From the NCBI GenBank assembly GCA_015067565.1, contig SVMF01000007.1, positions 1 through 64,000 of the forward strand: a stretch of DNA of 64,000 nucleotides, given 5' to 3'. Position numbers and translations under genes: made by a program. Shown here one piece after another: positions 4,104 through 52,892 of this stretch; the first letter of the stretch is position 1; every line of letters starts with the position of its first letter. The stretch comes from Oscillospiraceae bacterium. GTDB taxonomy: Bacteria > Bacillota > Clostridia > Oscillospirales > Oscillospiraceae. The notes below the pieces were generated by a model that worked only from the letters and a program-made list of their open reading frames with translations, ran no database searches and was not told where the DNA came from.

Positions 4104-5345
4104 ATGAGCAATGTCAGAGATATGTCCCTTGCTGAGTACGGCAGAATGAAGATCGAGTGGGTGCGTGATTTCATGCCTGCACTGGTGGCGATTCGTGAGC
4201 GCTTCGAGCGTGAGAAGCCGTTTGCCGGCAAGAAGATCACCATCTCCATCCATATGGAAGCCAAGACCGCATTTTTGGCGCTGTGTCTGGCGGCAGGTGG
4301 CGCAGAGGTGCACGCAACGGGCTGCAATCCTCTTTCAACACAGGATGATGTGGCGGCCGGCCTGGCTTCGCTGGGCGTTGAGACCTATGCAAAGCATGGT
4401 GTCGATGCGCAGGAATACAAGCAGCTTTTGGTTGAGGCACTGTCCTGCAAGCCCGATCTGGTCATTGACGACGGTGGCGACATCCTCGATACGCTGAACG
4501 AGCATCCGGAGCTGGCGGTCAATATCATTGGCGGCGCAGAGGAGACCACCACGGGCATCCATCGTCTGTATGCCAGAGCGAAGGCAGGTGTGCTGCCCTT
4601 CCCGATGATGAACGTCAATGATGCCAAGTGCAAGCACTATTACGACAACAAGTATGGCACGGGTCAGTCCGTGTGGGATGCCATCATGCACACGACAAAC
4701 CTGCTCGTAGCAGGCAAGACCGTTGTGATCGCGGGCTATGGCTACTGCGGCCGTGGTATTGCGATGCGTGCAAAGGGCATGGGCGCCGATGTGATCGTCA
4801 CCGAGATCGATCCCATCAAGGCTTTGGAGGCCTCCATGGACGGCTGCCGAGTCATGCCGATGGATGAGGCTGCTCCGCAGGGCGACATCTTCATCACCAC
4901 CACCGGCTGTAAGGATGTCATCGTTGGCCGCCATTTCAAGGTCATGAAGCACAATGCTTTCTTGTCCAATGCGGGACACTTCAACGTGGAGGTCAATGCC
5001 GAGGAGCTCGAGGCCATGGCAGTGCGCGTGTTCAAGCGTCGCAACGAGATCGTCGGCTACGAGATGGCCGACGGCCGTGTGCTGAATCTGTTGGCCGAGG
5101 GTCGGTTGGTCAACCTCGCCTCCGGCAACGGACATCCGGCAGAGATCATGGATACGAGCTTCTCTGTGCAGGCTCTTTCGTTGGAGTATATGCTCAAGAA
5201 TGGCGCAAACCTTGATAAGAAGGTCTATGAGGTGCCGCAGGCGATTGATGATGAGGTCTCCCACTTAAAGCTCAATGGTGCAGGTCTGAAGATCGATGCT
5301 TTGACTCCTGTCCAGGAAGCCTACATGGCAGGTTATATCGTATAA
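4104..5345 (+). CDS. ahcY: Adenosylhomocysteinase
   Basis: 413 aa; YGYCGRGIAMRAKGMGADVIVTEIDP NAD-binding, SNAGHFNVE and LASGNGHPAEIMDTSFSVQA motifs; RBS TGGAGG. Confidence 0.93.
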   Translation: MSNVRDMSLAEYGRMKIEWVRDFMPALVAIRERFEREKPFAGKKITISIHMEAKTAFLALCLAAGGAEVHATGCNPLSTQDDVAAGLASLGVETYAKHGVDAQEYKQLLVEALSCKPDLVIDDGGDILDTLNEHPELAVNIIGGAEETTTGIHRLYARAKAGVLPFPMMNVNDAKCKHYYDNKYGTGQSVWDAIMHTTNLLVAGKTVVIAGYGYCGRGIAMRAKGMGADVIVTEIDPIKALEASMDGCRVMPMDEAAPQGDIFITTTGCKDVIVGRHFKVMKHNAFLSNAGHFNVEVNAEELEAMAVRVFKRRNEIVGYEMADGRVLNLLAEGRLVNLASGNGHPAEIMDTSFSVQALSLEYMLKNGANLDKKVYEVPQAIDDEVSHLKLNGAGLKIDALTPVQEAYMAGYIV

Positions 5346-5667
5346 GAATTGACAACAGCCGCATCGTAAGATGCGGCTGTTGTCTGTCGAAAAACTTGAT
5401 TTTCGACAGACTGACAGAGTTCAAAAAGTCGTCAAGACGAGCAAACCGAGCGCGTCGGCGTACGATGGTACGGTAGAGCTCGGTTTGCGATGTAAGTCAA
5501 AATGCCTTGCGCAGCAAGCATTTGAAGTGCTTTTTTGCTGTATCGGAGATACGTTCGCAATCGCTTATTTGAACACAGATCGCCAACCGCCAAAAATTTG
5601 CATTTTGACGATTGGCGACTTTTTTGACACTCTGAGCCGCATCGTAAGATGCGGCTGTTGTCAATTC
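5346..5667 (+). repeat. Family-1 structured intergenic repeat, copy 2
   Basis: Perfect 20-bp terminal inverted repeats GAATTGACAACAGCCGCATC / GATGCGGCTGTTGTCAATTC; internal hairpins; core nearly identical to copies 1 and 3. Confidence 0.9.
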
Positions 5668-6184: not shown

Positions 6185-6491
6185 AACAGCCGCATCGTAA
6201 GATGCGGCTGCAGTCTGTCGAAAAACTTGTTTTTCGGCAGACTGTCAGAGTTCAAAAAGTCGTCAAGACGAGCAAACCGAGCGCGTCGGCGTACGATGGT
6301 ACGGTAGAGCTCGGTTTGCGATGTAAGTCAAAATGCCTTGCGCAGCAAGCATTTGAAGTGCTTTTTTGCTGTATCGGAGATACGTTCGCAATCGCTTAAT
6401 TGAACACAGATCGCCAACCGCCAAAAAATTGCATTTTGACGATTGGCGACTTTTTTGACACTCTGCAGCCGCATCGTAAGATGCGGCTGTT
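6185..6491 (+). repeat. Family-1 structured intergenic repeat, copy 3
   Basis: Near-identical to copy 2, bounded by AACAGCCGCATC...GATGCGGCTGTT hairpins. Confidence 0.9.
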
Positions 6492-6492
6492 G

Positions 6493-7473
6493 TTATTTTC
6501 CGAGGAGCTTTTTGATCCTGAAAATGGCATTGACCGTGCGGTAGCGCTTCTTGAGCAGGAGCTTGTAGATCAATCGCTTGTTCTTATCGAGCAGGGGCAG
6601 ATGCTTGTTTTCGCGGAAGTCGGGGAATTTTTTCTCCATATACTGCCTGAAATCGTTTACGAGATGGTGCTTGCGGTCAATCTGCAAAACACGCACCGTT
6701 GCAGCAATCAGCAGGTGCTCAATGGCCAGGAAGGTCAGCTCGTTGCGGTAAGTATCATAGAGCTTTTGCTCACGGAACCACGAGAGAATGTCGTCGAAAG
6801 CGTAGAGGATCTCTACATTGCGCTCTGAATTCTTGTTGTTCATGGCGCTGCCTTCCCGCTGCAGATAGTGGTAATACGGCTGCGGCAGGCGGATGACGGT
6901 CTTGGCCATAGCGTTGACCTTCGTCACGACACGAATATCCTCGTACCAGACGCGGCTGGCAAATTCGATGTTTTCGAACAGAGACTTTTTATATGCACGG
7001 TTCCACGGAGCCATGATGCCGAAAAACAGCTCGGGTGTGGATGCGGCATTGCAAGGCTTTCTGACCTCGACCAGCTCGTGCAGCTCACCATTTTTGACAC
7101 CGTCCTTTTCTACGTGTGCACCGAAAAGATACAGATCTGCGTGCGTTTTTTCAATCTCGGTAGCCAGATCGGACAAGAGCGTGTCATCGAGGTAATCGTC
7201 TCCGTCGACGAAGAGCAGATATTCGCCCTTGGCCAGCGCGATGCCGTGGTTTCTTGCGGCACCTGCACCGCCGTTGGGTTGATGGATCGCACGGATGAGC
7301 GCAGGATGGCGCGTGGCATAATCATCAATGAGCTTGCCGCTGCCGTCAGGGGAGCCGTCATCGATCAGAAGCAGCTCGAAATCCCGGCACTTCTGTGCCA
7401 GCACGGACTCGATGCATTTGGGAAGGTATTGCTCGATCTTGTAGATCGGAACGATCAGACTAAAGGTAGGCAT
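6493..7473 (-). CDS. Glycosyltransferase family 2
   Basis: MPTFSLIVPIYKIEQYLPKCIESVLAQ...LLIDDGSPDGSG...GGAGAARNHGI...FVDGDDYLD. Confidence 0.93.
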   Translation of the reverse strand: MPTFSLIVPIYKIEQYLPKCIESVLAQKCRDFELLLIDDGSPDGSGKLIDDYATRHPALIRAIHQPNGGAGAARNHGIALAKGEYLLFVDGDDYLDDTLLSDLATEIEKTHADLYLFGAHVEKDGVKNGELHELVEVRKPCNAASTPELFFGIMAPWNRAYKKSLFENIEFASRVWYEDIRVVTKVNAMAKTVIRLPQPYYHYLQREGSAMNNKNSERNVEILYAFDDILSWFREQKLYDTYRNELTFLAIEHLLIAATVRVLQIDRKHHLVNDFRQYMEKKFPDFRENKHLPLLDKNKRLIYKLLLKKRYRTVNAIFRIKKLLGK

Positions 7474-12699: not shown

Positions 12700-12832
12700 T
12701 GTTAACGGGAAGGTGAGAGCCTTCCCGTTTTTTATATAATATCATATCATGGAATATGGGAGAATTCTCGTATTAGACTTCTTCCTGCTAAGGGTAGAAA
12801 ATATATCAGAGTTGCGATTACAACAGGCCAAT

Positions 12833-12897
12833 TGAACGCAAATCGCCAATCGTCAAAAATTTGCATTTTGACGATTAGCGATTTTTTGACGCTCTGA
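12833..12897 (+). repeat. Partial family-1 repeat (distal hairpin module)
   Basis: TTGAACGCAAATCGCCAATCGTCAAAAATTTGCATTTTGACGATTAGCGATTTTTTGACGCTCTG matches the distal module of copy 2 (5569-5634). Confidence 0.75.
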
Positions 12898-17307: not shown

Positions 17308-17343
17308 AGTTTTGTCTCCTTTTTGGGAAGTTTTTGCGTTGTT

Positions 17344-17520
17344 CAAATTTCGATTTATCGCCCTGATTATCGTATCTCGTTGTAGGGTAGGGGCATGCCC
17401 CTACCGGCGGCAACCGCTACGATTTTGCCGGAAGCTGTTGCGAATACGGATCCCTTTCTGACGGTTGAGGCATGCCTCAACCCTACCGTGGCTGTGCAAT
17501 AACGGACAGCGAATTCGGAA
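17344..17520 (+). repeat. Family-2 palindromic repeat, copy A
   Basis: TTCAAATTTCGATTTATCG end; GGTAGGGGCATGCCCCTACC and GGTTGAGGCATGCCTCAACC palindromes; shared with 28228-28403 (inverted) and 31430-31601. Confidence 0.88.
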
Positions 17521-17566
17521 TTCGTTACCGGACATTTTTACATCATATCACATATTTTCAAAAAAG

Positions 17567-28204: not shown

Positions 28205-28227
28205 AAGGCGTAATGTCGCAAACCAAT

Positions 28228-28403
28228 TTCGATTTTACTGTCTGTTGTTGCACAGCCACAGTAGGGTTGAGGCATGCCTCAACCGGCAGAAACAGATCCG
28301 TATTCGCAGTAGCTTCCGGCGAAATCGTAGCGGTTGCCGCCGGTAGGGGCATGCCCCTACCCTACAACGAAATACGGTAATCAGGGCGATAAATCGGAAT
28401 TTG
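28228..28403 (-). repeat. Family-2 palindromic repeat, copy B
   Basis: Reverse-complement of copy A with the same two palindromes and the AATTCCGATTTATCG end. Confidence 0.88.
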
Positions 28404-28437
28404 AAATTCTTTGCTGTTCATAAAAATGGAGGTTCTT

Positions 28438-31421: not shown

Positions 31422-31429
31422 AATAAATA

Positions 31430-31980
<551 letters not shown>

Positions 31981-49928: not shown

Positions 49929-52892
49929 TTATTTCATCATATTTTCGATGAATCGCATCAAAATTGTGGCAACTTGTGCACGTGTGGCGTTGCCCTGCGG
50001 GTCGAGATAGGTCTGATTGCCGATCTTGGTGCCTGCCAGCAGGCCGACGGAGACGGCCCAGGAGATGGCATCTTCGGCATAGGAGCTGACCTTTCTGCCG
50101 TCGGGGAAGGAACTCAGAGGCGCTCTTGCGGTGGTGTCGATGCCGTTTGCGTTGCAGTAGCGGAAGAGGATGGTCGCAAGCTGCTCGCGGGTGATATTGC
50201 CGTTCGGGGCGAAGCGGCCGTTGCCGACACCACCGACGATGCCGTTATGAGCGGCCCAGGCGACCGCGTTGGTGTACCATTGCCCGCTTACGACATCGAC
50301 GAAGCTGTTTTCACCCTCGGCAGGCTCGCCGCAGTAGCGCCACAGCACAGTCACGAGCATGGCTCTGTTCATGGCGGTATCAGGCTCGAAGGTCGTTTCG
50401 CTCATGCCCTTCATCAGACCGTTTTCGAGCGCGTAATCGACCGCGTTATGATACCACACAGAGAGGCTGACATCCGCCAGATGTGCAGACGGGCAGTGGG
50501 CTGGCAGGATCTCGCTGTAGCAATCACCGCAGAAGGAACAGATGTGATCGATCCGACCGTCCGTGGTGCAGGTCGGCTTTGTGATGTGCGGCAGGTAGTT
50601 GTGGGCACTCGGCTCGGTGTGATCAGAGACATACGAATCTCCGCAGACGGTGCAGGTGTATTCGGTGTAGCCGCCGTCTATGCAGGTCGGCTTGATGACA
50701 TTTGTGATGTAATCGTGGCCCTTGGGGTTGGTATGATCGGCAATGTAGAAATCACCGCAGACGGTGCAGGTGTATTCGGTGTAGCCGCCGTTTATGCAGG
50801 TCGGCTCGATGACATTTGCGATGTAATCATGACCCTTGGGGTCGGTATGATCGGCAAAGTAGAAATCGCTGCAGACGGTGCAGGTGTATTCGGTGTAGCC
50901 GCCGTTTATGCAGGTCGGCTCGATGACATTTGCGATGTAATCGTGACCCTTGGGGTCAGTATGATCGTCAATGTAGGAATCACCGCAGACGGAGCAGGTA
51001 TACTCGGTAAAGCCGCCCTCTGTGCAGCTCGGCTGGGTGACCTTTGTGCGATACTTGTGTCCCTTGGCTTCGGTATAATCATCAATGTAGGAATCACCGC
51101 AGACGGAGCAGGTATACTCGGTAAAACCGCCTTCTGTGCAGGTTGGGGGAGTCGTTTTTGCGGTATAAGGATGGCCGAATGCCTCCATCACTTTATCGAC
51201 ATAGCTGTGGCCGCAGTCGATGCAGGTGTAGGTGGTAAAGCCTTCCGTTGTGCAGGTCGGTTCAGTGATTTCGCTTTGATATTTGTGGTCAAGAGGCTTG
51301 CCAACGGTGCTGTAGGTGTCCTCGCAGCGGTTGCAGACGTGGGTCGTTACGCTGCCTTGCGTGCAGGTTGGTTCGGTCGAGGAGCTTGTGTAGTCATGAC
51401 CGAGTGCGGCAACCGACTCAGTGTAAGAATGCTTGCACACAGAGCAGTGATGCAAACGCTCACCGGACTCGGTGCAGGTCGGCTCGGAAAGCACCGTGAT
51501 GCTTTCATTATGGGTGGTGAAGGTATAGCCGTAAGTTTCTGCATAGGTCTGCAGGGTGGAGTCGCGCCAGCCGTGCAGGACGGTTTTCTTGACGGTTCCC
51601 ATTTGCGAGGTGCTCTGGGGGTTGGCGATCTCACAGTTGGGGTCCAAAACGACGATCCGCTCCAGATTGTAACATCCGCTAAACTCTGTCCAGCCGATTT
51701 TGTGAACATTTGGAGGCAAAACAACGGTTTTCAGGCACGACATATTATCAAATGTGCTGCCGTTAAGCATTGTGACATCCTCGGGGATGACCAGATGCTC
51801 CACCAGAATACCATCGAGGTAGAGATTTCTTGCATAATAGAGGGGAGAGCCGCCATACATGTAGAAATCCGAATGGCACCACACAGAAAGATCGCTGATA
51901 TACACACCCTCGAGCGCGTTGCAGTTATCAAAGGCATGCTGATCGGTTGTCACAGGACGGTTTCCCATCGTGATCTTTTTCAGGCCGGTGCAATACATAA
52001 ATGCAAAATCATCGATCAGGGTGAGGCTGTTCGGGAACTTTACCTCCGCCAAGGCGGTGTCTCCGTTAAATGCATATTTGCCGATAGTGCTTACACGTCC
52101 GCCGATGGTGAGCTTCTTGAGCGCAGTGCAATTACGGAACGCGTAATCGCTGATCGTTGTCACGCTGTCACCGATATAGACCTCTTCCAGATGCCGGCAA
52201 TCATCGAAGGCATACTTGCCGAGGGTGATATCCTTTGCGCCCTCGGCACGGTCGGGGATGGTCAGCTTGACAAGGCCGCTGTCCTTGAAGGCAGAGCCGC
52301 CGACATTCATGCCCTGCAGAAGTGTCAGCTCCCTGACCGATTCGCAGCCTTCAAATGCACTGGCGCCAATGGTTTTAAGGTTGCTGCCAAAGTGCAGTGT
52401 GGTTGCTTTTGTGCAATAATAAAAGGCCTTAGCGCTCAGCTCTGTGAGTGTTTCGGGGAGGATGATCTCCTTCAGGGCGCAAAAGGCAAACGCGTTTTCT
52501 CCGATGTGGGAAAGGTAAGGGGGCAAGGGCGCATCGGCCAGCAGATCACAGAACAGAAAGGCCTTTTCTCCGATGCTGCGGACGCTTACGGGAATATTGA
52601 TCGAGGGAACCAATTCATAGTTGTAAAAAGCATTTGCGCCAATGGAGGTGACACCGTTTTTGATAATGATGGTGTCCACCAGGGTGTTGTAATTGTACCA
52701 TGGCGCACGGGTGTTAGCGTAGGTCGTGTCAAAATCGGGCATTGGGCCGTAGCCGGAGATCGTCAAGGTTCCGCTGTCATATGTCCATGTCAGGTTGCCG
52801 CAGGTGCCGGTGGTAGCAGCATGAACGGGCGCGATAGGCAGTGCGTGCAGGAACAAAATTGCGACCAAAAGCAGGGAAACCAATCGCTTCAT
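49929..52892 (-). CDS. Secreted S-layer-anchored surface protein (BspA-like LRR_5 + Cys-rich repeats + SLH domains)
   Basis: Signal peptide, LRR_5-like repeats (IGANAF, IGEKAF, IGASAF), about nine 38-aa PTC...CxxC repeats, three C-terminal SLH-like modules. Confidence 0.92.
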   Translation of the reverse strand: MKRLVSLLLVAILFLHALPIAPVHAATTGTCGNLTWTYDSGTLTISGYGPMPDFDTTYANTRAPWYNYNTLVDTIIIKNGVTSIGANAFYNYELVPSINIPVSVRSIGEKAFLFCDLLADAPLPPYLSHIGENAFAFCALKEIILPETLTELSAKAFYYCTKATTLHFGSNLKTIGASAFEGCESVRELTLLQGMNVGGSAFKDSGLVKLTIPDRAEGAKDITLGKYAFDDCRHLEEVYIGDSVTTISDYAFRNCTALKKLTIGGRVSTIGKYAFNGDTALAEVKFPNSLTLIDDFAFMYCTGLKKITMGNRPVTTDQHAFDNCNALEGVYISDLSVWCHSDFYMYGGSPLYYARNLYLDGILVEHLVIPEDVTMLNGSTFDNMSCLKTVVLPPNVHKIGWTEFSGCYNLERIVVLDPNCEIANPQSTSQMGTVKKTVLHGWRDSTLQTYAETYGYTFTTHNESITVLSEPTCTESGERLHHCSVCKHSYTESVAALGHDYTSSSTEPTCTQGSVTTHVCNRCEDTYSTVGKPLDHKYQSEITEPTCTTEGFTTYTCIDCGHSYVDKVMEAFGHPYTAKTTPPTCTEGGFTEYTCSVCGDSYIDDYTEAKGHKYRTKVTQPSCTEGGFTEYTCSVCGDSYIDDHTDPKGHDYIANVIEPTCINGGYTEYTCTVCSDFYFADHTDPKGHDYIANVIEPTCINGGYTEYTCTVCGDFYIADHTNPKGHDYITNVIKPTCIDGGYTEYTCTVCGDSYVSDHTEPSAHNYLPHITKPTCTTDGRIDHICSFCGDCYSEILPAHCPSAHLADVSLSVWYHNAVDYALENGLMKGMSETTFEPDTAMNRAMLVTVLWRYCGEPAEGENSFVDVVSGQWYTNAVAWAAHNGIVGGVGNGRFAPNGNITREQLATILFRYCNANGIDTTARAPLSSFPDGRKVSSYAEDAISWAVSVGLLAGTKIGNQTYLDPQGNATRAQVATILMRFIENMMK
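50510..51490 (-). repeat. Coding tandem repeats of 114 bp (38 aa)
   Basis: EPTCINGGYTEYTCTVCGDFYIADHTNPKGHDYITNVI-type units; identical blocks at 50791 and 50905 are 114 bp apart. Confidence 0.88.

Follow-up and report, generated by a model that had tools for sequence, protein, structure and literature searches.

A Small Mobile Element of Clostridia That Inserts into Terminator Hairpins, Duplicates Them and Carries a Conserved Structure

We describe a small jumping DNA element of ~255 nt that inserts into the terminator hairpins at the ends of bacterial genes, the whole hairpin being copied to both sides of it. The element was found in the window, i.e., the whole stretch of DNA that was analysed, which comprises 64,000 nt of a contig of an Oscillospiraceae bacterium. 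In our judgement it is likely to be a non-autonomous MITE for which an IS1182-type transposase acts in trans, inserting it into terminator hairpins with their duplication; it carries a conserved structure that most likely acts as RNA.

Element Copies in the Window and the Genome

The preliminary description of the window had delimited a structured repeat at 5346-5667 with perfect 20-bp terminal inverted repeats (TIRs). Both repeats were confirmed: GAATTGACAACAGCCGCATC occupies 5346-5365, and 5648-5667 is its exact reverse complement. The hairpins named for this unit were all in place. The 20-bp repeat is not the element end: it is common only to the neighbouring copy at 6185, and elsewhere other sequences stand at its position because it is part of the duplicated host terminator. 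The unit that is actually repeated extends from ~5380 to 5634, i.e., a 255-nt core between hairpin copies. Of the near-identical cores reported nearby, one was recovered at 6185-6493 with 97% identity; the other, in inverted orientation at 57-249, was 99% identical over 191 nt but truncated.

With the unit thus delimited, the window contains two complete copies on the plus strand, at 5380-5634 (255 nt; copy 2) and 6211-6465 (255 nt; copy 3, 97–98% identical to copy 2). Copy 1, on the minus strand at 57-249, has kept its left two-thirds and lacks the right end, and a right-end remnant lies on the plus strand at 12832-12897 (89.6% identity over 67 nt). A genome-wide search, proposed in the preliminary description, returned ~45 copies of near-full length (above 230 nt), with 87–100% identity, in the 2.10 Mb, 31-contig source genome, far beyond chance, and partial copies besides. 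The repeat is short and multi-copy and has no transposase gene, for which 255 nt would be too short; on every feature that the sequence allows to be tested, the label of a MITE is supported.

Other repeats were noticed in the window: an interspersed family of ~145–185 nt with GGGGCATGCCCC-type palindromes (17342-17526, 28221-28405 and 31429-31573) and a tandem array of 114-nt units (50517-51260).

Duplicated Terminator Hairpins at the Insertion Sites

Outside the 255-nt core, nearly every copy had its own GC-rich hairpin, usually identical left and right, and these flanking hairpins differed at nearly every site. In a direct-repeat test on the source genome, 35 of the 45 near-full-length copies were flanked by direct repeats of 19–41 nt (mean 26) that correspond to complete terminator hairpins, the palindrome spanning the direct repeat end to end in 16 copies. 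A 12-mer was common to both flanks of one copy in 37/45 cases, versus 4/1980 comparisons between flanks of different copies. Asymmetric loops agreed in direct orientation, and the repeats are therefore target-site duplications of the whole stem-loop. The ~10 copies (of 45) without a matching hairpin pair are assumed to reflect recombination or decay.

At copy 2, the element separates two copies of the host hairpin (GAATTGACAACAGCCGCATC-GTAA-GATGCGGCTGTTGTCAATTC), and the 20-bp inverted repeat seen earlier represents the outer arms of this duplicated hairpin. The left hairpin copy at 5357-5379 (AGCCGCATCGTAAGATGCGGCTG; full palindrome ~5346-5384) is an exact direct repeat of the right copy at 5635-5657, which is followed by TTGTCAATTC. 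As originally reported, an ahcY-like ORF ends at 5345, directly before the 5346 unit, and the minus-strand gene has its stop codon (TGA, 5661-5663) within the right hairpin copy and its extension. The element at 6211 lies between terminator copies at 6187-6210 and 6466-6489, which form a 24-nt exact direct repeat. Element-free orthologous junctions, a comparison that had also been suggested, were found after ahcY in three related species, each with a single terminator hairpin and no element; a further related species had its own separate insertion at this junction.

Gene Neighbourhood and Termination

In the source genome, 42 copies had two called neighbours: 26 stood in convergent and 16 in tandem gaps, and none in a divergent gap; three more were at contig edges. 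Among gaps of 40 nt or more, the background comprised 168 convergent, 436 tandem and 173 divergent gaps (777). Convergent junctions, where the preliminary description had placed the family members with both neighbours visible, were enriched (26/42 vs 168/777, P = 6e-8). The convergent count is a minimum, as our simple gene caller misses short genes such as the 98-aa HTH ORF to the left of the copy at 6211. Divergent gaps were avoided (0/42, P = 4.5e-5). Counts in other species were 27 convergent, 13 tandem and one divergent. The use of terminator hairpins as targets appears to be the cause of both the convergent enrichment and the divergent avoidance.

Runs of at least 4 T followed distal hairpin copies in 15 and 15 of 35 cases; after proximal copies, where element sequence stands instead, they were present in 0 and 1 of 35. 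Judging from this arrangement, transcription would run into the element and end at the distal hairpin copy. No convincing internal promoter was detected in the element. In 13 of the 16 tandem pairs of the source genome, its plus strand ran antisense to the genes on either side (P = 0.02); the same orientation bias was absent from other genomes (6 vs 7).

Element Ends and the Autonomous IS Partner

The element starts with CAGTCTGTCGAAAAA and ends with TTTTTTGACACTCTG. Its true TIRs, of ~15 nt (CAGnnTGTCnAAAAA), are imperfect, as is evident from CAGTCTGTCGAAAAA vs CAGAGTGTCAAAAAA. The left end forms a hairpin from the TIR and its own inverted copy (plus strand, 5382-5411; GTCTGTCGAAAAACTTGATTTTCGACAGAC), a feature shared by the source-genome copies and most of the elements in other genomes. 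The right end with its TIR (plus strand, 5614-5634; ...TTTTTTGACACTCTG) and the inner left TIR would form a closing stem by pairing.

A scan of the source genome for such ends yielded eight contig ends with an IS terminus A and eight with a terminus B. The assembly breaks inside this IS, only ~127 nt of which is left on each side. Each A end could be matched to a B end by an identical flanking terminator hairpin, giving 8/8 autonomous IS copies with duplicated hairpins. The first 15 nt of end A are those of the element's left end, neither IS end has the structured motif, and at three sites MITE and IS are adjacent and share one hairpin.

In congeners, ISs that have TIRs of this kind are hairpin-flanked, too, and the transposase behind these TIRs belongs to the IS1182 family (NF033551, E = 2.6e-108; Pfam DUF772 + DDE_Tnp_1_6). 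Another genus of the same family (L348) provided an intact IS of ~1.5 kb with an IS1182 transposase between two hairpin copies. Over 46 nt, the right end of this IS and end B in the source genome share 85% identity, and a 32-aa peptide of the source-genome IS, the interior of which is unassembled, resembles the C-terminus of the L348 transposase (15/28). The assignment of the partner to the IS1182 family appears well supported by the relatives and, in the source genome, rests on the 32-aa peptide and the 46-nt end. The shared ends, the shared target rule and the adjacency at one hairpin suggest that the element is mobilised in trans by this autonomous IS.

Other candidates were considered in the source genome. 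On contig C18, a terminal IS1182-like gene was ruled out as partner by its different end (GGGGCTGTCTC), and no real homologue of the L053-type transposase was present in the assembly. BLASTP of the C-terminal peptide of the source-genome IS against the end of the L054 transposase gave no match. Across genomes, IS1182 genes were not detectably enriched in those bearing the motif.

Several further observations concern related ends. The hairpin loops flanking the intact IS in L348 (G074, ~1341-1406 and 2898-2963) are mutually inverted (GAAGATTC vs GAATCTTC), unlike the direct copies elsewhere. At a contig end of the source genome (C16:111429-111706), the left 152 nt of the element run straight into part of the gene for a different IS1182-like transposase. 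The source genome also contains a second MITE family of 175 bp with related TIRs (CAGACTGTCGAAAAACGATAG...TTTTTTGACACGCTC) and flanking terminator-like hairpins (e.g., C12:90774-90949, C30:31511-31685, C19:48513-48687 and C3:7690-7864); the whole hairpin was exactly duplicated in three of 13 copies, and the others had different hairpins left and right. A 59-nt perfect foldback, which combines IS end B with the inverse of that end and appears to be a minimal element, occurs at C4:102008-102066 and C29:73778-73836 and lacks matching flanking hairpins.

Conserved Structure inside the Element

Covariance folding, which had been proposed as a check, revealed two covarying helices, P1 and P3. Helix P1 (plus strand, 5441-5488) has a conserved apex and reached a covariation score of 0.666 vs 0.169 in shuffles, with 91% of cells paired. 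Both-side changes numbered 235, compared to 77 in shuffles, compensatory changes were observed at 15/15 pairs, and the signal collapsed on sliding by one column. The apex motif GTCGGCGTAC-N4-GTACGGTAG (plus strand, 5454-5476) consists of an internal loop GUCGGC/GGUA and a stem GUAC:GUAC.

Helix P3 is long-range: its two strands come from the stretch that follows P1 and the stretch that precedes the right end. In copy 2, its 5' strand GTCAAAATGC (plus strand, 5496-5505) pairs with its 3' strand GCATTTTGAC (plus strand, 5600-5609). Pairings such as GTCAAAAT:ATTTTGAC, GCAAGC:GCTTGC, GCAGAAA:TTTCTGC and ACAGAGAAA:TTTCTCTGT were seen among the elements. Pairing of P3 was observed in 97% of cells in class A and in 80% in class B, vs 36–53% when slid, the two classes being split by a sequence feature (GTAAG) and not by pairing. 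Single-sequence folds agreed with the helices, the TIRs forming the closing stem.

In a deduplicated, model-fitted alignment, G.T pairs outnumbered A.C pairs 46 to 6, and 33 sequences favoured G.T against two; an unfitted MAFFT alignment, loose outer pairs included, gave 46 vs 18. G.T is far above A.C, and the plus strand is therefore the structured single strand. From these sequence comparisons, the structure most likely acts as RNA. Searches with the Rfam 15 covariance models returned no family match to the element, only the flanking terminator hairpins and chance-level hits.

Distribution

A search with the apex motif retrieved >100 loci in the genomes of many Clostridia. Elements with both ends definable measured ~220–370 nt, apart from one of 508 nt and one truncated to 143 nt, and were flanked by locus-specific duplicated hairpins. 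With the covariance model, the motif was detected in 34 of 392 sampled genomes of the class (Clostridia), representing at least 13 families. The same model added no further genomes in a 250-genome sample of the phylum; stricter filters can lose weak matches. The distribution was patchy, with many near-identical copies per genome. No match to the element was found in phages and plasmids, and viral contigs contained neither an element copy nor the IS, with one motif hit. In the main texts of the open-access literature, we found no report of this element.

The apex motif also occurs in other intergenic repeats that lack MITE ends (L190, L202, L269, L285; L198, L210, L221, L239, L277). Some of these repeats have it within a GGGG...CCCC stem, several are located 50–90 nt after a stop codon, and two surround a pyrE-like gene in L277.

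Proposed Mechanism and Alternatives

Under the reading that we favour, the IS1182-type transposase would have as its target the palindrome in an intrinsic terminator, which it would recognise probably in cruciform form. The element would be joined at the two feet of the stem, and repair would duplicate the entire hairpin, so that each flank would gain a hairpin copy and a T-tract would remain only beyond the distal one. The transcript of the upstream gene would then read through the element as a 3'UTR and stop at the distal copy, which would make the site nearly harmless. The plus strand carries a conserved multi-helix structure made up of the TIR closing stem, hairpin P1 with the apex GUCGGC-GUAC-N4-GUAC-GGUA and the long-range P3. 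A wider conjecture, on which we are evenly divided, is that these are class-wide transposable structured RNAs of ~230–310 nt, TIR-closed, spread by IS1182-type transposases into terminators and appended to transcripts without loss of termination, the RNA (P1, P3 and the GUCGGC/GGUA loop) having a selected function for the element or the host.

The TIRs, target-site duplications, copy number, ends shared with the IS and lack of a long conserved ORF fit an ordinary MITE, i.e., an IS1182-like deletion derivative with no function of its own and only incidental folding. We regard this as improbable: incidental folding cannot account for the compensatory changes throughout P1, for a second covarying helix at long range or for the strand asymmetry of G.T and A.C, and the loop motif is fixed across at least 13 families and absent from the IS ends. 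The covariation by itself already argues strongly against a plain MITE. The conserved structure, the terminator hairpins on both sides and the convergent enrichment agree with a host-encoded RNA or double-terminator module that is kept for termination at convergent junctions and is not mobile. Such a module is nevertheless scarcely credible, as the flanking hairpins are site-specific, exact direct duplicates, a transposase-bearing IS obeys the same rule, and orthologous junctions of relatives are without the element. The patchy distribution with many near-identical copies per genome also speaks against it, and the proximal hairpins lose their T-tract, with no gain in termination. The preliminary description had offered a mobile element or a conserved RNA or double-terminator module as alternatives; mobility and a conserved RNA appear to hold together, and the resemblance to a double terminator is a side effect of the terminator having been duplicated.

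A different question is whether the motif works as DNA and not as RNA, its hairpin, in single-stranded or cruciform form, being bound by the transposase or by a host factor while the element transposes. Its location in a DNA transposon with a palindrome target, the failure to find a promoter and the antisense position of the plus strand in the source-genome tandem pairs (13/16) would all be compatible with this, which we consider possible but doubtful: the ends of the autonomous IS lack the motif yet were transposed, and a large excess of G.T over A.C on one strand is not expected of a cruciform, although a strand-specific ssDNA form is still compatible with it. The findings suggest a way in which a gene-dense genome can be colonised at low harm, through splitting and duplicating terminators. 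The structure conserved inside the element, present in at least 13 clostridial families, is a candidate for a new RNA family.

Comparison with Known Systems

HEARO is an Rfam structured RNA carried by a mobile element. The element described here likewise combines a structured RNA, as we read it, with a mobile element, and differs in matching no Rfam model.

IS1272 and TnSha1 of staphylococci, which belong to the IS1182 family, transpose into stem-loops without a primary sequence consensus, including several terminators confirmed by RNA-seq, and delete or replace the stem-loop with no target duplication (PMC5678879, PMC4923244). Our element resembles them in its stem-loop/terminator target and in the IS1182-family transposase, here found in relatives of the IS partner. 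Unlike them, it duplicates the whole stem-loop and removes none, is non-autonomous and has a conserved structure. Whole-stem-loop duplication was sketched as a theoretical alternative, pathway b, in PMC5678879, and the elements described here fit that pathway; they provide dozens of natural cases of an outcome that this paper presents as no more than a hypothetical route. A review cited in PMC4923244 and PMC5678879 is given there as the source for palindromes being the target of some IS1182 members, in less detail than is seen here. The TIRs and the target rule of our element are those of IS1182-type ISs (NF033551) of congeners and of the same family, the element itself being without a transposase.

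The pneumococcal MITEs BOX, RUP and SPRITE, as described in a review (PMC10969869), are likewise short, multi-copy, intergenic and foldable, and some are terminator-like. In a comparison by description and not by sequence, the main text of that review mentions no IS1182 partner, terminator duplication or class-wide covariation for them. ISs inserting into REP sequences (e.g., ISPpu9, PMC8450116) also have a palindromic intergenic target. These REP-targeting ISs use a repeated sequence family (PMC8450116), whereas the element described here uses any terminator palindrome, with no shared target sequence.
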